From Ferrithrix thermotolerans DSM 19514 (lineage in GTDB: Bacteria; Actinomycetota; Acidimicrobiia; Acidimicrobiales; Acidimicrobiaceae): a stretch of 36,594 nt of DNA. The notes below the pieces were generated by a model, which saw only the letters and a list, made by a program, of their open reading frames with translations, was not told the origin of the DNA and made no database searches. This document shows positions 851-10,366 of the stretch, piece after piece (position 1 is the stretch's first letter; each line of letters opens with the position of its first letter). The DNA lies in contig NZ_FQUL01000022.1 in NCBI RefSeq assembly GCF_900128965.1, positions 1-36,594 on the forward strand. Reading direction: 5' to 3'. A program made the translations under genes and the position numbers.

Positions 851-891
851 ACGCTGACAGAGCTGGAGATAACTCCTGACTTTGTCAGCGT
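851..891. terminator. Inverted repeat between convergent genes, possible bidirectional terminator
   Basis: ACGCTGACA at 851-859 is perfectly complementary to TGTCAGCGT at 883-891, and the intervening bases carry a second small stem (GGAG at 865-868 with CTCC at 873-876). It lies between the stop of the plus-strand gene at 795 and the stop of the minus-strand phosphatase at 894. There is no T tract on either side, so intrinsic termination is uncertain. Confidence 0.4.
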
Positions 892-893
892 CC

Positions 894-1493
894 TCACATT
901 ACTAGCGTCGAAAAACCATCACTCGGATTACCTTCCACGATGATCGATCTGCCTTCTTCGATCCAGATTACGTCGTTAGTAGCTCCCGGGAGGTTCAAGG
1001 CTAGCCCAAATAGCCTAACGAAGGCATCTATCACTCCAAAGTGAGTCACAAGCAGTAGGGATAGCCCCCGATAGTCCTTCGTTAGGAGCCCAAGGAGAGC
1101 CAAGATCCGCTCACGAAACTCACGAGGTGACTCACCACCCGATCCGATACCTTGATCGTCTACATACCTCGCTAAGGGCCGTCCAAGGTCACTAAAGCGC
1201 ACTGCATCTATCGAGCCGGGATGCAATTCACACAATAGACACGACGGCGATGCGACTGGAACCCCCAAAGCCTCCGCCGCAATGTAGGCGCTCTGACGCG
1301 ATCTGCGCAACGAGGAGCAGAAAACCTGGTCTACCGCTACCTTAGCGTGGATGAGTTCATGTGTGCTTCTTTGCACCTGAAGCACCCCCTTGGGTGTCAA
1401 ACCCCTGCACCCACGGTGCCCGCCTACGGTACGATTCGTCCCAGACTGAGACTCCCCGTGTCTCATAAGCACGAGACGCAGATTGGAGTTCAT
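894..1493 (-). CDS. Histidine phosphatase superfamily protein (phosphoglycerate mutase-like)
   Basis: A 199-residue single-domain protein of the histidine phosphatase superfamily. The N-terminal strand LVLMRHGE supplies the phospho-accepting histidine (H12, with R11), SSLRRSRQSA gives the next conserved arginine (about R63), E89 sits where the acid catalyst is expected, and LLVTHFGVIDAF gives the second catalytic histidine (H151). Members act on sugar phosphates, nucleotides, cobalamin or trehalose precursors or proteins, and this sequence does not say which. It starts with ATG 6 bases after the stop of the VWA gene, so it is probably the last gene of the long minus-strand unit and co-transcribed with moxR and the VWA gene. 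A hairpin at 851-891 directly follows the stop. Confidence 0.85.
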   Translation of the reverse strand: MNSNLRLVLMRHGESQSGTNRTVGGHRGCRGLTPKGVLQVQRSTHELIHAKVAVDQVFCSSLRRSRQSAYIAAEALGVPVASPSCLLCELHPGSIDAVRFSDLGRPLARYVDDQGIGSGGESPREFRERILALLGLLTKDYRGLSLLLVTHFGVIDAFVRLFGLALNLPGATNDVIWIEEGRSIIVEGNPSDGFSTLVM

Positions 1494-1499
1494 CGGCTG

Positions 1500-2867
1500 T
1501 TATACACCTCTTACCACGAACTCTTCCAACTGTCGAAGCGTCCGACACTCAAAGACTCCGTCGCAGAACTGTCCGTAGATAGAGACCACTGAGTCTCCGC
1601 TGTTCCAGTATGACTTAGGCTCGGGGTTTAGCCAAAATACCTTCTTGGCTCTATCTTTGATCCGGCCCAACACCTCTTCTTGTGGAGGATGGTAGTTATT
1701 CCTAGCATCTCCACAGACTATGACGGTTGTACGCTTCGTGATAGCTTCCAGATACCTCTCCTCAAAGACCGAGAGCGAGTTGCCGTAGTCTGAGTGGCCA
1801 TCCAATCCAACCACCTTTGCCTTGGTCGTTACCTGAAGAAGTGCGCCTTGAATGCTCTCCCCACCTGAGAAGTATTTGGTAACCTCATCTACCGTATCTA
1901 TAAACACGAAACTCCGTATCTTTGAGAATGCGTTCGTCATGGCGTAGAGTAACTGCATCGTAAAGCGTGCAAACGATGCTACGGATCCGGAAATATCTGA
2001 GAGTAACACTACCTCAGGCTTAGAGACCTTTGGTTTACGAAAATATACCCTAGCCGGTGTGCCTCCATAAGACATAGCCTCCCTGACCGTTCTCCTGAAG
2101 TCCAACGACGCGTCTCGCTGGGAGATGTGTCGTTGTGCAAGTCTCGAAGCCAGCTTTCTCGCTAGAGGTTCCATCACCTTGTGCAGAGCCTCCAGCTCAT
2201 CCTTGGAAGCATGCACAATATCGACGTCTTCAGGAAGTTTTAGAGCCAGAGTCTTGGCCACTGCCCTAGAGCCACGATCCCCGACCAGTCGCCTTAGAAC
2301 CTCTGACTCCACTTCGGAGCGTATTAGCCTTGAGACTCCTTCGGTGGCCTTAGTTCGGTCTCGCTCTACAGTCGTATCCTCACCAAAAGAAAGTCCGTAA
2401 AGAAACCCTTTCAAAACCTCTTCTAGATCTATCTGCCTGAGCGTCCTATAGGTGTAGTAGACTCCCCCGACGGGACGGCCCTTTTCAATACCGGCGAATC
2501 GTGTTACAGCTCTCCTCAACGCCAAGCGCAGTGCCAAGAGATCATTCTCGAGTAAGGCATCTACTATTTGCTCTCTAAGTTCATCTGCAAGATCCTCTGA
2601 GCTTGGCGTGTGCTCCGGATCGTTGACAAACTCACTTTCCTCCGCGTTCGTGGGTCCAAGAGGGAAGAAAACATCGAAGAGCCTATCGAACAAAGCTCTG
2701 TGTTTTACATCTTTTATAAGAGTCGCAGCCAACGTCTCTCGAAACTCGCTTCGGTCCATAACATCTATAAGGGGAAGAGCACCGTAAGCATCGACAACCT
2801 CCGCCTGCGAGACCTTGACGTTGCCCTCTCTTAGAACATCCACGAAGGCAAGTAGTTGATCGTTCAA
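1500..2867 (-). CDS. VWA domain protein, CoxE-like partner of MoxR ATPase
   Basis: 455 residues. The C-terminal half is a von Willebrand A domain with the MIDAS motif DISGS (D291, S293, S295) and a late strand VIVCGDARNN (near 383-391), the arrangement seen in CoxE-like proteins. The N-terminal half is helical and charged and has no recognised domain. The start is TTG, overlapping the moxR stop as TTGA, with AGAGG six bases upstream, so translation is probably coupled. CoxE-type VWA proteins work with MoxR AAA+ ATPases, classically in maturing metalloenzymes such as CO dehydrogenase. No target enzyme is encoded nearby, so the client is unknown. The upstream partner and downstream phosphatase suggest one functional cassette. 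Confidence 0.88.
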   Translation of the reverse strand: MNDQLLAFVDVLREGNVKVSQAEVVDAYGALPLIDVMDRSEFRETLAATLIKDVKHRALFDRLFDVFFPLGPTNAEESEFVNDPEHTPSSEDLADELREQIVDALLENDLLALRLALRRAVTRFAGIEKGRPVGGVYYTYRTLRQIDLEEVLKGFLYGLSFGEDTTVERDRTKATEGVSRLIRSEVESEVLRRLVGDRGSRAVAKTLALKLPEDVDIVHASKDELEALHKVMEPLARKLASRLAQRHISQRDASLDFRRTVREAMSYGGTPARVYFRKPKVSKPEVVLLSDISGSVASFARFTMQLLYAMTNAFSKIRSFVFIDTVDEVTKYFSGGESIQGALLQVTTKAKVVGLDGHSDYGNSLSVFEERYLEAITKRTTVIVCGDARNNYHPPQEEVLGRIKDRAKKVFWLNPEPKSYWNSGDSVVSIYGQFCDGVFECRTLRQLEEFVVRGV

Positions 2868-3745
2868 CCGATGCCTCTTCCCTTACTATCTAGATGTTTG
2901 CGTACCGCATGGATATCTGAGCGGTACTTGAGAAGTATGCTTAGGGTTTCTCTTTTGATGTCTTTGTCAAGAGATCCGACTCCCATCTCCAAAAGAGAAG
3001 CTGCCCAATCTAAAGTCTCCGAGATCGAAGGCTTTTTCTTTATGTCCAGCGCTCTGAGCCCAGAGACAAACTCCGCAATCTGTCTAGCTAAAGCCTCCTC
3101 TACACCTGTTATCTTGGTGTCAATAATCTCTTTTTCTCTCTCGATATCTGGGTAGTCGATATAGAGGAATAGACATCGCCTCTTCAGTGCCTCCGAGAGA
3201 TCTCTAGTGCCGTTAGAGGTCAAAAAAACGAGCGGTATCTGTTTAGGGGCGACGGTTCCAAGTTCTGGTATCGATACCTGGAAGTCGGAGAGCACCTCGA
3301 GCAACAGTGCCTCTGCCTCCACCTCTAGGCGATCCACCTCGTCGATAAGTAAAACGCTTTGTCTCGGAGTGCGCAGCGCCCTTAGGAGGGGCCTCTCCAG
3401 CAGATACTCTTCAGAGAAGATATCTTCGCTCAGCAGATCCCAGTTTGCCTCCCCAGCGACGTCCTTTGTGGCCTGAATTCGCAAGAGCTGCTTACGATAG
3501 TTCCATTCATAAAGTGCCTTTGACTCATCCAGTCCTTCGTAGCACTGCAGTCGGATAAGGTCCATAGCCGTCATTGCTGCTACCGTCTTGGCCAGCTCAG
3601 TCTTTCCCGTACCCGCCGGACCTTCAATCAGCACCGGCTTTTCGAGACGCGCCGCCAAGTACACCACCGTTGCAATCTCTTTGTTGGGGAGGTATCCATT
3701 AGCCCGCAGTTGATCCTCTACGCTCGATATTGAGTCAAACTTCAA
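2864..3745 (-). CDS. MoxR-family AAA+ ATPase
   Basis: 293 residues, one AAA+ module. Walker A is EGPAGTGKT (residues 41-49), Walker B LLIDEVD (132-138), and sensor 1 is the asparagine in FLTSNGTRDL (N178), followed by ALKRRC, the usual MoxR arginine-finger region. MoxR ATPases act as chaperones that insert cofactors or remodel complexes together with VWA proteins, which fits the overlapping gene downstream. The start is TTG at 3745, with AAGGA five to six bases upstream; that Shine-Dalgarno overlaps the proA stop, so the cassette appears attached to the obg-proB-proA operon. The substrate is not evident. Confidence 0.9.
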   Translation of the reverse strand: MKFDSISSVEDQLRANGYLPNKEIATVVYLAARLEKPVLIEGPAGTGKTELAKTVAAMTAMDLIRLQCYEGLDESKALYEWNYRKQLLRIQATKDVAGEANWDLLSEDIFSEEYLLERPLLRALRTPRQSVLLIDEVDRLEVEAEALLLEVLSDFQVSIPELGTVAPKQIPLVFLTSNGTRDLSEALKRRCLFLYIDYPDIEREKEIIDTKITGVEEALARQIAEFVSGLRALDIKKKPSISETLDWAASLLEMGVGSLDKDIKRETLSILLKYRSDIHAVRKHLDSKGRGIG

Positions 3746-3753
3746 AGTGTTCC

Positions 3754-5043
3754 TTACGTCCTTATATGTCCGTTACCTTCTATCACATACTTTACGTTGG
3801 TTAGTGCCTCAAGTCCCATCGGGCCACGAGCGTGCAACTTTTGAGTCGAGATACCTATCTCGGCTCCCAAACCCAACTGATTGCCATCCACGAAACGCGT
3901 CGACGCATTGACGACGACCGCTGCGGCGTCGACCTCACGTTTGAACCTCTCTGCCGCTTGACGGTCATTTGTCACGATCGCCTCAGAGTGACCTGTTGAG
4001 AAACGTCTTATATGAGCGATCGCCTCGTCTAGATCCTTCACAACCCTTACCGCTAACACCATATCCAAAAACTCAGTTGCGAAGTCATCCTCGGTCGCAA
4101 CCATAGCATCTAAGACATATCTTCGGGTCTCATCATCGCCTCGAATCTCCACGCCCCTAAGGAAAGAGGGTACGTCACTCAAAAACTCCCGTGCTACAGC
4201 TTCATGAACCAGTAGCGTCTCTGCAGCGTTACAAACACCGGGCCGTTGTACCTTGGCGTTTGCTACGATTTTCTTAGCCATCTCTATGTCACAGCCCTTG
4301 TCTACATAGATATGACAGTTGCCGTCACCGTCGAGTACGTAAGGTACAGTTGCGCTCTCCCTGATAGCTCGTATTAGCGCTGGTCCACCACGAGGAATCA
4401 GACAGTCGATGTAACCATTAAGTCTCATGAACTCTATCGCACCGTCCCGAGTCGTGTCCCTTACCACCGTCACCACCTCCCCTGGAAGACCGGCATCTTC
4501 GAGCCCTTGCACAATTGCGTCGCCGATCGCAAGATTCGTCTCGATAGCTTGGGAAGACCCCCGCAGCATCACTGCGTTGGCTGACTTTACGCATAGTGCT
4601 GCTGCGTCTGCGGTGACGTTAGGTCGATTCTCATACACGATTCCTACGACACCGAGAGGCACCCTCATCTGCTGAACCGACAGCCCATTTGGAAGTGTAT
4701 ACCCCTTCACCACCTGTCCGACGACCTCCGGTAGCCGAGCTACCTCCAAAACCCCAGCTACCATGGCTTCGAATCTTTGATCATTGAGTGTCAAGCGATC
4801 CATCTGAGTCTTTGTGAGATCCGATCTACGACCTCTTTCAAGATCCGATATGTTGGCCTTTAGGATCTCAGTCTTAGATCTTTCGAGACACCTAGCCATG
4901 GCCCTCAACGCTTCAGTTCTTTGTTCACCGTTGACCTCAGTCAACACATAGGAAGCACTCTTTACACGAGAGGCCACCTCTGTGAGCGACGGAAGGGCAG
5001 TATCTGACATAAGAAACAGCTTAGCGTCAGGTCCCATAAACAC
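3754..5043 (-). CDS. proA: Glutamate-5-semialdehyde dehydrogenase (gamma-glutamyl phosphate reductase)
   Basis: Second enzyme of proline synthesis: NADPH-dependent reduction of gamma-glutamyl phosphate to glutamate-5-semialdehyde in the cytosol. Length 429 is normal for the family. VYENRPNVTADAAALC, the DGDGNCHIYVD segment and the catalytic-cysteine motif VQRPGVCNAAETLLVH (C271) are all present, as is the C-terminal LHARGPMGLEALT signature. Three starts are possible: GTG 5043 (preceded by GGGG at nine bases), ATG 5037 and ATG 5010; the first has the best ribosome site. proB lies 41 bases upstream, and the gap holds a small hairpin (5055-5060 with 5069-5074) that touches the presumed ribosome site. 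Confidence 0.96.
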   Translation of the reverse strand: MFMGPDAKLFLMSDTALPSLTEVASRVKSASYVLTEVNGEQRTEALRAMARCLERSKTEILKANISDLERGRRSDLTKTQMDRLTLNDQRFEAMVAGVLEVARLPEVVGQVVKGYTLPNGLSVQQMRVPLGVVGIVYENRPNVTADAAALCVKSANAVMLRGSSQAIETNLAIGDAIVQGLEDAGLPGEVVTVVRDTTRDGAIEFMRLNGYIDCLIPRGGPALIRAIRESATVPYVLDGDGNCHIYVDKGCDIEMAKKIVANAKVQRPGVCNAAETLLVHEAVAREFLSDVPSFLRGVEIRGDDETRRYVLDAMVATEDDFATEFLDMVLAVRVVKDLDEAIAHIRRFSTGHSEAIVTNDRQAAERFKREVDAAAVVVNASTRFVDGNQLGLGAEIGISTQKLHARGPMGLEALTNVKYVIEGNGHIRT

Positions 5044-5084: not shown

Positions 5085-6173
5085 TTAAAGTAGCAAGACC
5101 AGGTCGTCTCTATGGATGACCTCGAGGTAAGGTCTACCGGTCAGGTCCTTGGACCGAACGCCCCGTAACGCCAGAACATCTTCCGAGGGCATTTGAACTA
5201 TACCTTTTGCGAAGCAATCTCCGTCTTCGGTAGTAACCGACACGGCGCTTCCGCTCTCAAAGGTCCCCTTCACCGCCACCACTCCTGCTGGAAGCAAAGA
5301 GCCCCCGTTAACCATTAGAGCCTCCTTGGCGCCTTTGTCAACCAAGATCTCCCCTGATGTAGGGCAAGCAAATGCAATCCACAGCTTTCGAGCGCTAAGC
5401 CTCCTGGGACGAGCGAGAACCTTAGTACCTAAGAACTCCTCCCCTTCAACTACCCTTAGGACGACCTCAGGTTCTTTCGCCGACGCAATCGTAGACATCA
5501 CCCCAGACCACGAAGCCATCTTCGCTGCCAACAACTTGGATGCCATACCACCGCTACCACGTTCTGTACCGGCTGCACCTGCTATCTCCAAGAGTTCGGC
5601 GTTCACCTCCTCAACCTCTTCGATAAGAGAAGCCTCTTCGTAATGCCTGGGGTCTGCACTATAGAGTCCACTTTGGTCCGTTAGGAGAACGAGGTGATCA
5701 GCAGCGATCAGATTTGCCACCAGCGCTGCAACTTTGTCGTTGTCACCGTAACGAAGCTGTTCGTTGGAGAGGGCATCGTTTTCGTTTATAACAGGAAGAA
5801 CGCCAAGCTCTAAAAGCTTTGAGAGAGTCTCTCTGGCGTGCAGATATTGAGATCTATCTGCAAAGTCCCCAGGTATCATGAGCAACTGCGCCGCCTCCAC
5901 CTGATACTTCGCAAGTATTTCACGGTATGTTGCAATGAGCTGACCTTGACCCACAGCTGCCGCCGCTCTAAGAGTGACTTGATCCGACGGCCGTTCGCGA
6001 AATCCCAGAGACTTCAGACCCGCTGATATAGCTCCTGAACTAACAAGGACAACCTCGTGCCCCTTCGACATAAGCGCAGCCATCTGTTTTATGAGTTCAA
6101 GGAGTGTGCCTTGATCTATGACACCCTTAGAGTCGGTAACTGACGACGAGCCAACCTTTATTACAACCCTCAC
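5085..6173 (-). CDS. proB: Glutamate 5-kinase
   Basis: First enzyme of proline synthesis, ATP-dependent phosphorylation of glutamate, normally feedback-inhibited by proline. The 362 residues comprise an amino-acid kinase domain (about 1-240: MRVVIKVGSSSV start, VSSGAISAG, NENDALS, GDND, LLTDQSGLYSADPR) and a C-terminal PUA domain (about 265-355, with the GGSLLPAGVVAVKG strand), as in E. coli ProB. The ATG overlaps the obg stop as ATGA, so translation is coupled. Followed by proA, giving the usual obg-proB-proA order. Confidence 0.96.
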   Translation of the reverse strand: MRVVIKVGSSSVTDSKGVIDQGTLLELIKQMAALMSKGHEVVLVSSGAISAGLKSLGFRERPSDQVTLRAAAAVGQGQLIATYREILAKYQVEAAQLLMIPGDFADRSQYLHARETLSKLLELGVLPVINENDALSNEQLRYGDNDKVAALVANLIAADHLVLLTDQSGLYSADPRHYEEASLIEEVEEVNAELLEIAGAAGTERGSGGMASKLLAAKMASWSGVMSTIASAKEPEVVLRVVEGEEFLGTKVLARPRRLSARKLWIAFACPTSGEILVDKGAKEALMVNGGSLLPAGVVAVKGTFESGSAVSVTTEDGDCFAKGIVQMPSEDVLALRGVRSKDLTGRPYLEVIHRDDLVLLL

Positions 6174-7468
6174 GGCTGCATCGCGTCCTCATAGGTAAAT
6201 GAGATGTCCCCAACGTTCACCTCATCACCTTCTTTCACACCGAGTCGCTTTAGCGCCTTCATAACACCAAGAGCCTCGAGGCGACGCTGTAGGACGGACT
6301 GAGCGGCAAAGGAACTCAGGTCGGAGAGACGTACGGCCCGAAGAGCGTCTCTTCCGGTGACAAGAAACCGTCCATCTCCAACCCTCTCCACTTGAAACTC
6401 CTTTTCAGGTAGTGGCCGCAGTACAACCTCTTCAGCGTAGAAGGTACCCTTGTCGTCGCTTAGAGCCTTGGCTTGAAACATTGCGGTTATCAGAGAATCG
6501 ATCCCTTCGCGCGTTGCGGCGGAGACCTCTGTTATCGAGGCCAGTGAGATCCCTAGGGAGAGATTTGACATACGGTTCGAGAGCGACCCTCTATCTGCGG
6601 CATCGATCTTGTTGAGTACCAGGATCACAGTTCTTTCGCTAAGATCTCCCAGGTAAGCATCTAGCTCCCTTGCGACACCATGAATTTGTTCTTCCAACGA
6701 TACACCGATGCCTTCGGATGCATCTGCAACCAAGCCAAGCACCTTGGACCTCTCGACGTGCCTTAGAAACTCAAGTCCCAGTCCCCTACCTTCACTTGCT
6801 CCTTCTATGAGCCCAGGGACGTCTGCAACCACTAGCTCCGAGCGATCCCGGTCTAATCCACGGCTGACAACGCCAAGAGAGGGAACCAAAGTAGTAAATG
6901 GATAGTCACCGATCTTGGGACGAGCCTTTGAAACTGCGGCGACTAAAGAGGATTTGCCGACATTCGGCATACCCACAAGAGCAACATCGGCAACCAGTTT
7001 CAGTTCAAGATCGAACCAGAGTTCCTCTCCCAGCTCTCCCTGCTCGGCAAAGTCAGGAGCCCTGCGCTTATTCGACAAAAACCCTGCATTACCCTTTCCC
7101 CCTCGCCCGCCCCGGGCGACACACACCTTTGCCCCATAAGATGCAAGGTCGGCTATCAATTCTCCATCTAAAGACTTGACCACGGTACCTATGGGAACCT
7201 CTACTAAGGTATTTGATCCCCTCGCTCCCTTTTTCTTCTTACCTGAACCGTGACCACCATCTTCTGCGCGTCTATGAGGATGATCCCTGAAGCCAGCTAG
7301 AGAGTTCAGGCGAGGAGAGGTAACTAGGTAAACCGATCCCCCATCTCCTCCATCCCCTCCGTCTGGACCGCCCTTGTCTACAAAGGGTTCACGCCTAAAA
7401 GAAACAGCTCCAGCGCCACCGTTTCCGGCTTTGGCGTGGAGCTGCGCTCTATCGATAAACTCAGGCAT
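6170..7468 (-). CDS. obg: GTPase Obg, ribosome assembly and stress GTPase
   Basis: 432 residues in three domains: the glycine-rich Obg fold (1-~158, with GNGGAGAVSFRRE and the GGPDGGDGGDGGSVY stretch), the G domain (~160-335; G1 GMPNVGKSS at 166-174, G2 region YPFTTLVP, G3 DVPGL, G4 LNKID) and a C-terminal OCT domain (~350-430) found in Gram-positive and actinobacterial Obg. It acts in large-subunit maturation and growth control. It sits 28 bases downstream of rpmA, the classical rplU-rpmA-obg arrangement, and overlaps proB by four bases. Confidence 0.97.
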   Translation of the reverse strand: MPEFIDRAQLHAKAGNGGAGAVSFRREPFVDKGGPDGGDGGDGGSVYLVTSPRLNSLAGFRDHPHRRAEDGGHGSGKKKKGARGSNTLVEVPIGTVVKSLDGELIADLASYGAKVCVARGGRGGKGNAGFLSNKRRAPDFAEQGELGEELWFDLELKLVADVALVGMPNVGKSSLVAAVSKARPKIGDYPFTTLVPSLGVVSRGLDRDRSELVVADVPGLIEGASEGRGLGLEFLRHVERSKVLGLVADASEGIGVSLEEQIHGVARELDAYLGDLSERTVILVLNKIDAADRGSLSNRMSNLSLGISLASITEVSAATREGIDSLITAMFQAKALSDDKGTFYAEEVVLRPLPEKEFQVERVGDGRFLVTGRDALRAVRLSDLSSFAAQSVLQRRLEALGVMKALKRLGVKEGDEVNVGDISFTYEDAMQP

Positions 7469-8136: not shown

Positions 8137-9936
8137 CTAAAGCAATTCCTGATCAAATATAAGGCCTCGTCCCTCGCAAGTCGGACAAGTTTGGGAAAAC
8201 GCCTCCACAAGCCCTTCCGAAACTCTCTGTCTTGTCATCTCTACGAGTCCGAGGGGAGACATATCATAGACGTGGCTCTTGGTCTTGTCCCTTGCTAACG
8301 CAGCTCTAAATGCCCTCATAACATCGTCTCGGTTCTCTTTGATGAGCATATCGATAAAATCGATAACGATGATGCCACCAATGTCTCTGAGTCGTAGTTG
8401 ATGAGCTATCTCTTCGACGGCCTCGAGGTTGTTCCGATGAATAGTCTCTTCCAAAGATACCGTACCGACATTCTTTGCGGTATTTACGTCTATCACGGTT
8501 AGAGCCTCAGCCCTGTCTATCACGATAGATCCCCCAGAGGGAAGCCAAACCTTTCTGCCGAGAGCCTTATGAAGCTGTTCGTGAACGTGATAGGCTTCAA
8601 AGAGAGGAACAAGATTCTCGTTAGGATCGTAGTACTCAACACGATCCGCCAGTTCAGGGGAGATCGCAGATACATAGGAGACAACCTCCTCGTACATGCT
8701 CTGATCGTCTATTATTACACCCCTATAGTTGCGATTGAACTCTTCCCTAATCACCCTCAGTGCGACCTTTGGTTCGCGATAAAGGAGGGCCGGGGCGTGC
8801 ACAGTCCTCGCCATCTGATCGATCTTCTCCCACATCTCTGTAAGACGCGTGAGGTCTCGACTAAGCTCCTCTGCACTAGCTCCCTCAGCAGCTGTCCTAA
8901 CGATCATTCCGAATCCAGGAGGTTTTATCTCATCAAGAATCCGTCGTAACCTGCGCCGTTCCTCCTCGGGGAGTCGTTTGGAGATTCCATAGCTATCAGA
9001 GTGAGGGATAAGCACTACAAATCTTCCGGGCAAAGATACCTCTTGAGTAAGACGCGCACCTTTTGCCCCGATAGGATTCTTAACAACCTGGCAGATGACC
9101 GTTTGTTTCGGTCTCAACAGATGTTCGATCCGCACACTACGGTCACCGACCTCGATATCATCACGATCGAAGCGCACGTCACCTCTGTAGATTACTGCAT
9201 TCTTCGATGTGCCGATGTCTATGAAGGCTGCCTCCATGCCAGGTAAGACATTTGCAACACGACCTAGATAGATGTTTCCATCAATGTTGTATTGATCATC
9301 CGCCTCTCTTGATACGTAGTGTTCTATTAGCGTTCGACCTTCAAGAATCGCTATCTGTGAAGCACCACCTTTCACATGGACGCACATTAGGTACCGTCCA
9401 ATCGGCCTGCCCTTACGCTGACGTGGAGCCCTCTGATTCAGACGTCTCTTGCCTCTTGGACCTTTTTCCAACGAGTCTGCGAGTTTCCCCTCTATGTTGT
9501 ATTCGATTGGACCTTCTGGCACAACAACGTCGCTGTCAGCTTTCGTCCTTAGATACTTACGTTTCCGTCTAGTTGCCTCCGAGAGTGGGGGCGGGGCCGG
9601 ACGAGTATCCCCGATCTTAGGTTTCGCCTCTATGCCTTGAGGAACAGGGACTTTACCAGCCAATGGAACCTTTGACTCTTGATCATTTGAGTCGGACACC
9701 TGCACATTATCGTTAGCTCCCTTTTGCCCCCTAACTCTACCTCTAGATCTGCGAACAGAGCGTGATCTGACCTCTGGCTCAGCCTTGGTGTCACTGATTT
9801 GATCAGACTTTACCCTACTACTACCCTCCCTGCTAGATGAAGAGACCGGAGGGGGCAGCTTTATCGACTCTTGGCCACGTTCTCCAGACGCTCCCGCCCC
9901 ATTTAATTTGTCTAAACTCAAATTCTCTTCGGACAC
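8137..9936 (-). CDS. rng: Ribonuclease E/G family endoribonuclease
   Basis: RNA-decay and rRNA-maturation endonuclease. About 180 N-terminal residues are low-complexity, charged and arginine-rich, then an S1 domain (~215-295, YLGRVANVLPGMEAAFIDIG), a DNase I-like catalytic domain with metal ligands in VIDVNTAK (D483) and IIVIDFIDM (D526), and the zinc-link CPTC (584-587) with following CEGRG. I chose the GTG at 9936 because GGAAGGG lies nine bases upstream; an in-frame TTG at 10041 would add 35 residues without a comparable ribosome site. The ending soon after the zinc-link resembles RNase G or short actinobacterial RNase E, whose disordered arm is N-terminal. Symbol could equally be rne. Confidence 0.93.
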   Translation of the reverse strand: MSEENLSLDKLNGAGASGERGQESIKLPPPVSSSSREGSSRVKSDQISDTKAEPEVRSRSVRRSRGRVRGQKGANDNVQVSDSNDQESKVPLAGKVPVPQGIEAKPKIGDTRPAPPPLSEATRRKRKYLRTKADSDVVVPEGPIEYNIEGKLADSLEKGPRGKRRLNQRAPRQRKGRPIGRYLMCVHVKGGASQIAILEGRTLIEHYVSREADDQYNIDGNIYLGRVANVLPGMEAAFIDIGTSKNAVIYRGDVRFDRDDIEVGDRSVRIEHLLRPKQTVICQVVKNPIGAKGARLTQEVSLPGRFVVLIPHSDSYGISKRLPEEERRRLRRILDEIKPPGFGMIVRTAAEGASAEELSRDLTRLTEMWEKIDQMARTVHAPALLYREPKVALRVIREEFNRNYRGVIIDDQSMYEEVVSYVSAISPELADRVEYYDPNENLVPLFEAYHVHEQLHKALGRKVWLPSGGSIVIDRAEALTVIDVNTAKNVGTVSLEETIHRNNLEAVEEIAHQLRLRDIGGIIVIDFIDMLIKENRDDVMRAFRAALARDKTKSHVYDMSPLGLVEMTRQRVSEGLVEAFSQTCPTCEGRGLIFDQELL

Positions 9937-10366
9937 TATCAATGACCCTTCCAGATAGTGACCCAACCTGACAGACTCCAGCTTCCGACGTAAAGCAGGT
10001 GCGCACAGCGCTTGAACTCTTAGAAACTTCCCACAAGTCAAGTTCGGTCATTGCGACAGGTGGTTCCTCTAGATGCCTGCGAGAGAAACGAACCTTCGTC
10101 GCCTTGTAAAATCTTTGTTTGCTAGCCGATCCGGACTGTCTTCTTGGTTGAACCGACACCACAAGCAAAGCCCAAAAGACAATTAATACTTGGGTTGTCC
10201 AACGTGACTCAACAAACATTGCCTTCATTGTAGTGCAAATCTTCCGACGCACCCCATATGGTAGGTAAATCGATGTATCAATGAGCGTTATCCACTTATA
10301 GCCCAAAACGCTGCATCTCAAGATCGCTGATCGCCAAAGGAGGTGCGACTTGACCTACGCCTTTTT
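9937..10366. other. 430-base gap between mrdA and the RNase E/G gene
   Basis: No convincing gene. A minus-strand frame from about 10321 to 9833 is open but resembles no family, has no ribosome site and runs 100 bases into the RNase gene. The region should hold the promoter for the RNase-rplU-rpmA-obg-proBA unit; TACAAT in the minus sense near 10232-10227 is the best -10 candidate but has no good -35. In many actinobacteria rodA and radical-SAM/DUF2344 genes occupy this interval; none is present. Confidence 0.5.

Follow-up and report, generated by a model that had tools for sequence, protein, structure and literature searches.

The DNA stretch analysed here (the window) comprises 36,594 nucleotides from Ferrithrix thermotolerans DSM 19514 and contains, on its minus strand, a gene pair encoding a MoxR-type AAA+ ATPase and a CoxE-like VWA protein, followed by a histidine phosphatase gene. 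These three genes end a run of nine (an RNase E/G-like gene, L21, L27, obg, proB, proA, moxR, vwa and the phosphatase gene; Table 1), whose open reading frames (ORFs), read directly, are separated by gaps of at most 55 bases or overlap by 4 bases. The stop codon TAA of proA lies inside TAAGGA, a Shine-Dalgarno-like stretch, 8 bases ahead of the moxR start codon (TTG). The moxR stop codon, TGA, in turn shares bases with the vwa start codon, TTG (TTGA, 2867..2864), and the ATG of the phosphatase gene is found 6 bases past the vwa stop. A preliminary description of the locus had given the same three junctions, with coordinates spanning MoxR and the proA stop; the whole cassette extends over positions 894-3745. 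A consensus scan called no promoter-like or terminator-like site in the 8-base gap that separates proA from moxR.

The three products matched the Pfam families AAA_5 (MoxR, 2.9e-12), VWA_CoxE (VWA protein, 1.8e-41) and His_Phos_1 (phosphatase, 7.4e-21). The MoxR motifs were intact, with Walker A (GPAGTGKT), Walker B (VLLIDE), sensor 1 (TSN) and RRC. The VWA protein exhibited the motifs D291xSxS, GHSDYG (from residue 357) and GDARNN (from residue 386); D291, S293 and S295 were invariant among 17 aligned VWA proteins and, judging from the spacing, S359 would occupy the place expected for the threonine of the metal ion-dependent adhesion site (MIDAS). The Pfam domain reached residue 449 of 455. 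The predicted structure (mean predicted local distance difference test score of 80.3, predicted template modelling score of 0.56) displayed a VWA fold; compared with the PDB, the MIDAS domain of midasin ranked first (1.4e-4) and the VWA domain of NorD thirteenth (7.0e-4).

Table 1. Features of the MoxR-VWA locus in the window.
Feature	Position	Strand	Basis and remarks
MoxR-type AAA+ ATPase	2864..3745	-	293 amino acids, TTG start; ORF and Pfam
CoxE-like VWA protein	1500..2867	-	455 amino acids, TTG start; ORF and Pfam
Histidine phosphatase, branch 1	894..1493	-	199 amino acids, ATG start at 1493; ORF and Pfam
proA	3754..5043	-	ORF and NCBIfam; ends TAA; 8-base gap to moxR
proB	5085..6173	-	ORF and Pfam
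obg	6170..7468	-	ORF and Pfam
L27	7497..7748	-	Named by eye; context; precedes obg in relatives too
L21	7804..8121	-	Named by eye; context; recurs in relatives' loci
RNase E/G-like gene	8137..10041	-	Named by eye; context; recurs in relatives' loci
RNA hairpin, possible transcript end	851..891	-	Directly behind the phosphatase stop; without a T tract

Conservation of the pair within the class was determined in a sample of 119 genomes, with the MoxR orthologue match set at 55% identity or more. Such a match was found in 80 of the 119 genomes, including that of the window. A lower-level match was found in 24 more, all belonging to one genus with genomes of 0.7-1.1 Mb (24 of the 26 sampled), and the four loci read from this genus showed the order proA-MoxR-VWA-nadD. 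These four loci and those of 74 of the 79 non-window genomes with a match of at least 55% (G021, G056, G094, G099 and G109 being left out) made up a set of 78 class loci. In 76 of them, the VWA gene was located within 300 nucleotides behind MoxR on the same strand. The sole exceptions, L047 and L057, exhibited a gap of about 700 nucleotides. VWA likewise followed MoxR within 300 nucleotides in 71 of the 77 loci with room in a named collection, which partly covers the same genomes.

The MoxR orthologue was scored as absent from 15 class genomes, in which MoxR matches either stayed at the CoxD level or were missing; the VWA orthologue was also absent from 13 of these and present in two. The 13 genomes comprised 11 that were 88-98% complete and two incomplete ones (77-78%) from the genus with genomes of about 1 Mb; six of the 13 gave weak VWA matches at the level of CoxE (1.5e-16 to 5.1e-12). 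The two loci that were read from MoxR-negative genomes (L084 and L085) were both found beside CoxM. This joint presence and absence bears out the proposal that MoxR and VWA form a unit: the pair is real and conserved, and belongs to a known type of molecular machine, although its branch is uncharacterised.

Among the 78 class loci, the nearest known gene upstream of MoxR was proA in 46, proB in 18 and obg in nine, with none in five; the proA counts are lower bounds, as L051, L063 and L064 have a proA detectable by profile that tblastn missed. MoxR was found directly behind proB in six loci and directly behind obg, with neither proB nor proA between, in three. The attachment to obg-proB-proA noted previously is supported by the tight same-strand run and the uninterrupted proA-moxR junction, but proA is not an obligate neighbour. 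Downstream of VWA, on the same strand, nadD was present in 51 and rsfS in 44 of the 78 loci. Both were said to be absent after proA, which is correct at the window locus; however, they have been relocated rather than lost, both being present side by side on contig C73 of this genome. Gene positions in these surveys came from tblastn, which missed diverged genes; the first gene calls had produced false antisense ORFs in GC-rich loci, and a second way of gene calling overlooked some genes.

Beyond the class, 93 of the 246 phylum genomes matched MoxR at 1e-85, a set that mixes branches, and 60 loci were fetched. Three loci that we took for mycobacteria-like (L125, L129 and L131) showed the row proA-MoxR-VWA-nadD-rsfS at close range; a fourth (L130) showed the same row, but with 4 kb between VWA and nadD. 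In named genomes of Geodermatophilus, Blastococcus, Klenkia and Frankia, this row was followed by a phosphatase gene, and a phosphatase was found behind rsfS in nine of the 60 fetched loci. From these arrangements we infer that the older row may have been obg-proB-proA-moxR-vwa-nadD-rsfS.

In a tree of 144 MoxR sequences rooted on CoxD, three groups were distinguished: the CoxD clade (support of 0.999), a proA-type group (0.86) and another group (0.924), part of which adjoins an iron-type alcohol dehydrogenase gene (cluster c43; genes read by eye). The MoxR of the window paired with that of a member of its family, G014 (0.943). All trees were built with FastTree only, and several inner nodes were weak, some with very low support. 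On this sequence comparison, the MoxR-VWA pair of the obg-proB-proA locus is a distinct actinobacterial branch, apart from both CoxD and the MadB-like group. The branch adjoining the iron-type alcohol dehydrogenase was seen, by eye, in L128, L138 and L141-L143, which probably belong to the MadB group. Two of these loci, L142 and L143, also carry CoxM-CoxD-CoxE about 5 kb from it. One genome, G158, carried two proA-type MoxR copies (L086 and L104), one of them beside proA; this genome is marked as 5% contaminated and one copy may be foreign.

The phosphatase had a narrower distribution. Residues R11, H12, R64, E89 and H151, which we take to be the catalytic positions of a histidine phosphatase, were present in the window protein and each was kept in at least 27 of the 28 aligned VWA-linked copies. 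Within the order of the window (27 of 29 genomes, G059 and G099 being left out), a phosphatase was found behind VWA in 11 of the 27 loci, directly in ten and 554 nucleotides away in one. None was detected by tblastn in the 51 class loci outside the order, although very diverged phosphatases could escape this search. It was also present behind VWA in 18 named loci, partly from the same genomes as the class loci; among these, Acidithrix ferrooxidans (L232) exhibited the order of the window, RNaseG-L21-L27-obg-proB-proA-MoxR-VWA-HisP. At E ≤ 1e-6, 16 of the 42 genomes of the window's family, that of the window included, gave a phosphatase match, and in all 15 others the best match started 9-80 nucleotides past the VWA stop. 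The gene was present in all three other sampled genomes of the window's genus. A second, weaker phosphatase match was observed in L271, away from VWA as far as could be seen.

In two trees, the VWA-linked phosphatases were separated from those following rsfS (support of 0.991 in the first). These trees were midpoint-rooted, with modest inner support, and the second excluded sequences shorter than 121 amino acids. The phosphatase that follows rsfS in other Actinobacteria is presumably of the GpgP type; the idea that the window gene is a leftover of this rsfS-phosphatase neighbourhood was unsupported, given its separate branch in both trees. The closest solved relatives of the phosphatase were CobC-like (5.1e-10), but the protein did not qualify as an alpha-ribazole phosphatase CobC (60.2 of the 162.9 bits needed), and of 11 other genomes that carry the linked gene, 7 gave no CobS match, although the genome of the window did. 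Overall, the gene looks like a later, lineage-specific addition that joined the pair in a single order; wherever it was recognised in the family, the linkage is firm, and it is probably co-translated with MoxR and VWA. The three-gene unit proposed earlier fits the close relatives of the window in which a phosphatase is recognised (15 of 15 family genomes), but is too broad for the order at large (11 of 27 loci) and for the rest of the class (0 of 51).

Behind the phosphatase gene, the stretch 825-905, picked after its repeat had been seen, had a minimum free energy of -28.9 kcal/mol (z = -3.64; 1 of 200 shuffles as good). The hairpin it contains was not flagged by the terminator scan, which called four terminator-like sites in the window versus 6.3 expected by shuffling; one of these lies inside moxR and one inside vwa, and we take these two for chance. 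Positions 1-795 of the plus strand are taken up by an open-ended ORF that includes a GYWEVASDGGIFTFGDAGFYGS stretch, converges with the phosphatase gene and ends at 795; its product is possibly secreted, as a surface protein or one of glycosidase-like type.

It is usually the client encoded next door that gives a MoxR-VWA pair away. At the window locus, no client gene was recognised beside the pair, in agreement with the preliminary description. Neither of the two candidates examined in this respect qualified as an obligatory client. Sulfite reductase was considered because an expression map groups Rv2425c with cysH and nirA. It was examined in 34 genomes, made up of 21 carriers of the pair, 11 non-carriers and two genomes with VWA but no MoxR match (G059 and G103). 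A PF01077 match was absent from 13 of the 21 carriers (the window genome included) and present in 5 of the 11 non-carriers. For molybdenum hydroxylases, 7 of the 21 carriers had no PF02738 match, whereas 9 of the 11 non-carriers had one. The 49 kDa subunit of complex I was matched in all 32 genomes, and was hence uninformative as a client test.

Shared neighbours were sought in 26 chosen loci away from proA, with genes named by eye. TatC-like and flavin-reductase-like genes recurred in four of these loci, and in one MoxR clade the downstream genes of five or six loci encoded an ABC transporter together with a binding protein of NMT1-like type. Nine loci contained ABC ATPases, but these belong to a very common family. 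The Streptomyces loci shared genes of sugar or lactate type near the pair. None of these recurrent neighbours was taken for a shared client. As separate observations, again with genes named by eye, L108, L114, L117, L119, L120 and L126 belong to one MoxR clade, and most of them have NMT1-like ABC transporter genes near the pair; in L112, L248 and L255 (the latter two from Streptomyces), the pair stands off the markers of the proA locus, near genes of lactate or rhamnose type.

The window pair was compared with several named systems. The only other MoxR match in its own genome at E ≤ 0.001 was a CoxD, 48% identical and followed by CoxE (L002, contig C37), located behind CO-dehydrogenase-type genes (CoxM-like and CoxL-like by eye). 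Of the three PF02738 matches of this genome, two were located on C37 and the third on C48. These two pairs are paralogous and occupy separate places in the genome. They share an AAA+ gene followed by a VWA gene, the Pfam family VWA_CoxE and the DxSxS motif. CoxD and CoxE differ, however, in lying beside CO dehydrogenase genes, where the window pair is flanked by proA and the phosphatase gene; in forming the separate CoxD clade, whereas the window MoxR groups with proA-linked proteins; and in motifs, the genome's own CoxE having GGT and LSDG where the window protein has GHSDYG and GDARNN. In addition, some carriers of the window-type pair have no molybdenum hydroxylase match at all.

The closest named families by score were MadB for MoxR (NCBIfam NF047784; 297.9 of 475 bits) and MadC for VWA (NF047783; 159.8 of 600 bits), both below their cut-offs; the source of these names was not found among the literature matches listed. 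The probable MadB loci (c43) adjoin an iron-type alcohol dehydrogenase gene and form their own tree group, unlike the pair between proA and the phosphatase gene. NorQ and NorD also form a conserved AAA+/VWA gene pair, and the VWA domain of NorD was among the structural matches of the VWA model, but their sequence similarity to the window pair is remote only. Rv2426c and Rv2425c of Mycobacterium tuberculosis, which we take to adjoin proA (Rv2427c), were likened to the window pair through the mycobacteria-like loci with proA-MoxR-VWA (L125 and L129-L132), Rv2426c itself being outside the tree. In L129-L131, the phosphatase differs in that it follows rsfS and belongs to another phosphatase branch. 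The open-licence literature on Rv2426c and Rv2425c, and on MoxR together with proA, CoxE, CoxD, nadD or Actinobacteria, gave no account of the pair's role in the portions available.

Our preferred reading, which we hold to be somewhat better than even, is that the pair, as a distinct actinobacterial branch related to CoxD/CoxE and MadB/MadC, uses ATP to remodel a widespread but dispensable client encoded elsewhere, in the manner of NorQ/NorD, and had a phosphatase attached to it in one order. The AAA+ MoxR ring would bind the VWA adaptor to form a two-part remodelling machine; the adaptor would grip a folded client and open it, so that a cofactor or subunit could be placed. In Acidimicrobiia-like genomes, where the pair is kept at an obg-proB-proA ... 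nadD-rsfS locus, it would probably be read within the transcript of that locus. A NorQ/NorD-like action is suggested mainly by the paired genes and by the relation to CoxD and CoxE. Metal is reported to be let into nitric oxide reductase by twisting of the VWA partner of NorQ (PMC13036017), and the MIDAS motif is reported to be required for activity but not for NorQ binding (PMC9976466).

Several observations weigh against the remodeller. The remodelling role is assigned by analogy with NorQ/NorD. Most structural matches of the VWA model were generic VWA domains. In the MoxR profile search, midasin chains came first, followed by ClpB (1.2e-8), VCP-like ATPases, NorQ (9.5e-8) and, at 8.8e-7, a chain of the CbbQ/NirQ/NorQ type. 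ClpB and other general AAA+ chains matched as well as NorQ, and no listed row had a single stretch over the threshold alone. This profile search identifies an AAA+ protein, not which kind. Thirteen of the class genomes examined do without both genes, and G059 and G103 carry VWA without a MoxR match, the VWA of G103 being at a contig edge. Moreover, none of seven locus markers was found in 37 of the 55 phylum loci with room upstream; once the 11 of these 37 that are of the MadB-like group are set aside, 26 of 44 are still marker-free, so that many lineages keep the pair elsewhere. Finally, a study of bedaquiline-selected M. tuberculosis mutants lists, under the table heading of hitchhiking mutations, repeated deletions that take away the start codon of rv2426c (PMC9184757); the recurrence of these deletions makes the gene look dispensable in vitro in this species.

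Among the other explanations, we regard as possible, though doubtful, that in this order all three genes act together as a functional unit, with the phosphatase dephosphorylating the client or a phosphorylated ligand in the same maturation step. The constant position behind VWA in the 15 family genomes, the recurrence in 11 same-order loci and 18 named loci including Acidithrix ferrooxidans, the separation from the other sampled phosphatases and the maintenance of the five catalytic positions all favour such a unit, as does a claimed precedent, CoxF, which is said to mobilise copper via a phytase activity and to bind CoxE (PMC4240915). However, a phosphatase match at 1e-6 is missing from 26 of the 41 other family genomes, and although many of these 26 are incomplete, one is a closed genome that keeps MoxR-VWA; no phosphatase lies behind VWA in 16 of the 27 same-order loci or in any of the 51 class loci outside the order; and in G002, G027 and G110 a related phosphatase lies elsewhere. 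That the pair is instead a maturation factor of the large ribosomal subunit, a bacterial two-gene counterpart of midasin/Rea1, appears improbable. The neighbours L21, L27, Obg and RsfS, the three loci in which MoxR directly follows obg, and the top rank of midasin in the MoxR profile search and of its MIDAS domain in the VWA fold search would fit this role. Nevertheless, midasin has several AAA units, so that its whole-chain score may be a sum, no stretch passing alone, and its VWA match was only slightly better than that of NorD; the lack of any locus marker in 26 of the 44 phylum loci that remain without the MadB-like group also speaks against it, as does an M. tuberculosis expression map, which assigns Rv2425c, together with cysH, nirA and others, to intermediate and lipid metabolism rather than to information pathways (PMC1884158). 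The more specific version, in which a midasin counterpart kept between obg and rsfS acts on the maturing or resting 50S subunit, with the phosphatase as a regulator added in one order, seems to us less probable still.

The similarity to CoxD and CoxE could also mean that the pair is a second CoxD/CoxE set, serving CO dehydrogenase or another molybdenum hydroxylase. The CoxE-like Pfam match and the 48% identity to the genome's own CoxD are in its favour; but a separate CoxD-CoxE already stands beside CO-dehydrogenase-type genes, PF02738 is missing from 7 of the 21 carriers and present in 9 of the 11 non-carriers, and the proA-type MoxR falls in a separate clade, which makes this explanation very unlikely. 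We give hardly any credence to a MoxR-vWA conflict or defence system. Such systems do employ MoxR and vWA genes (PMC7159879). In the ternary systems, however, an effector is fused behind VWA, where the window protein, whose domain ends 6 residues before its C-terminus, has no room for one; PADLOC gave no match for VWA or the phosphatase, while its matches for MoxR were weak and of a general AAA kind (best 8.6e-7), and the conserved place is among housekeeping genes.

Returning to the proposed NorQ/NorD-like remodeller, its branch spans Acidimicrobiia-like genomes to Streptomyces and Frankia, and is kept even at a genome size of roughly 1 Mb. This wide range and retention, combined with the lack of a recognised neighbouring client, point to an unnamed maturation step. 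The order-specific phosphatase would then provide a natural experiment, in which the same machine occurs with and without a phosphatase.

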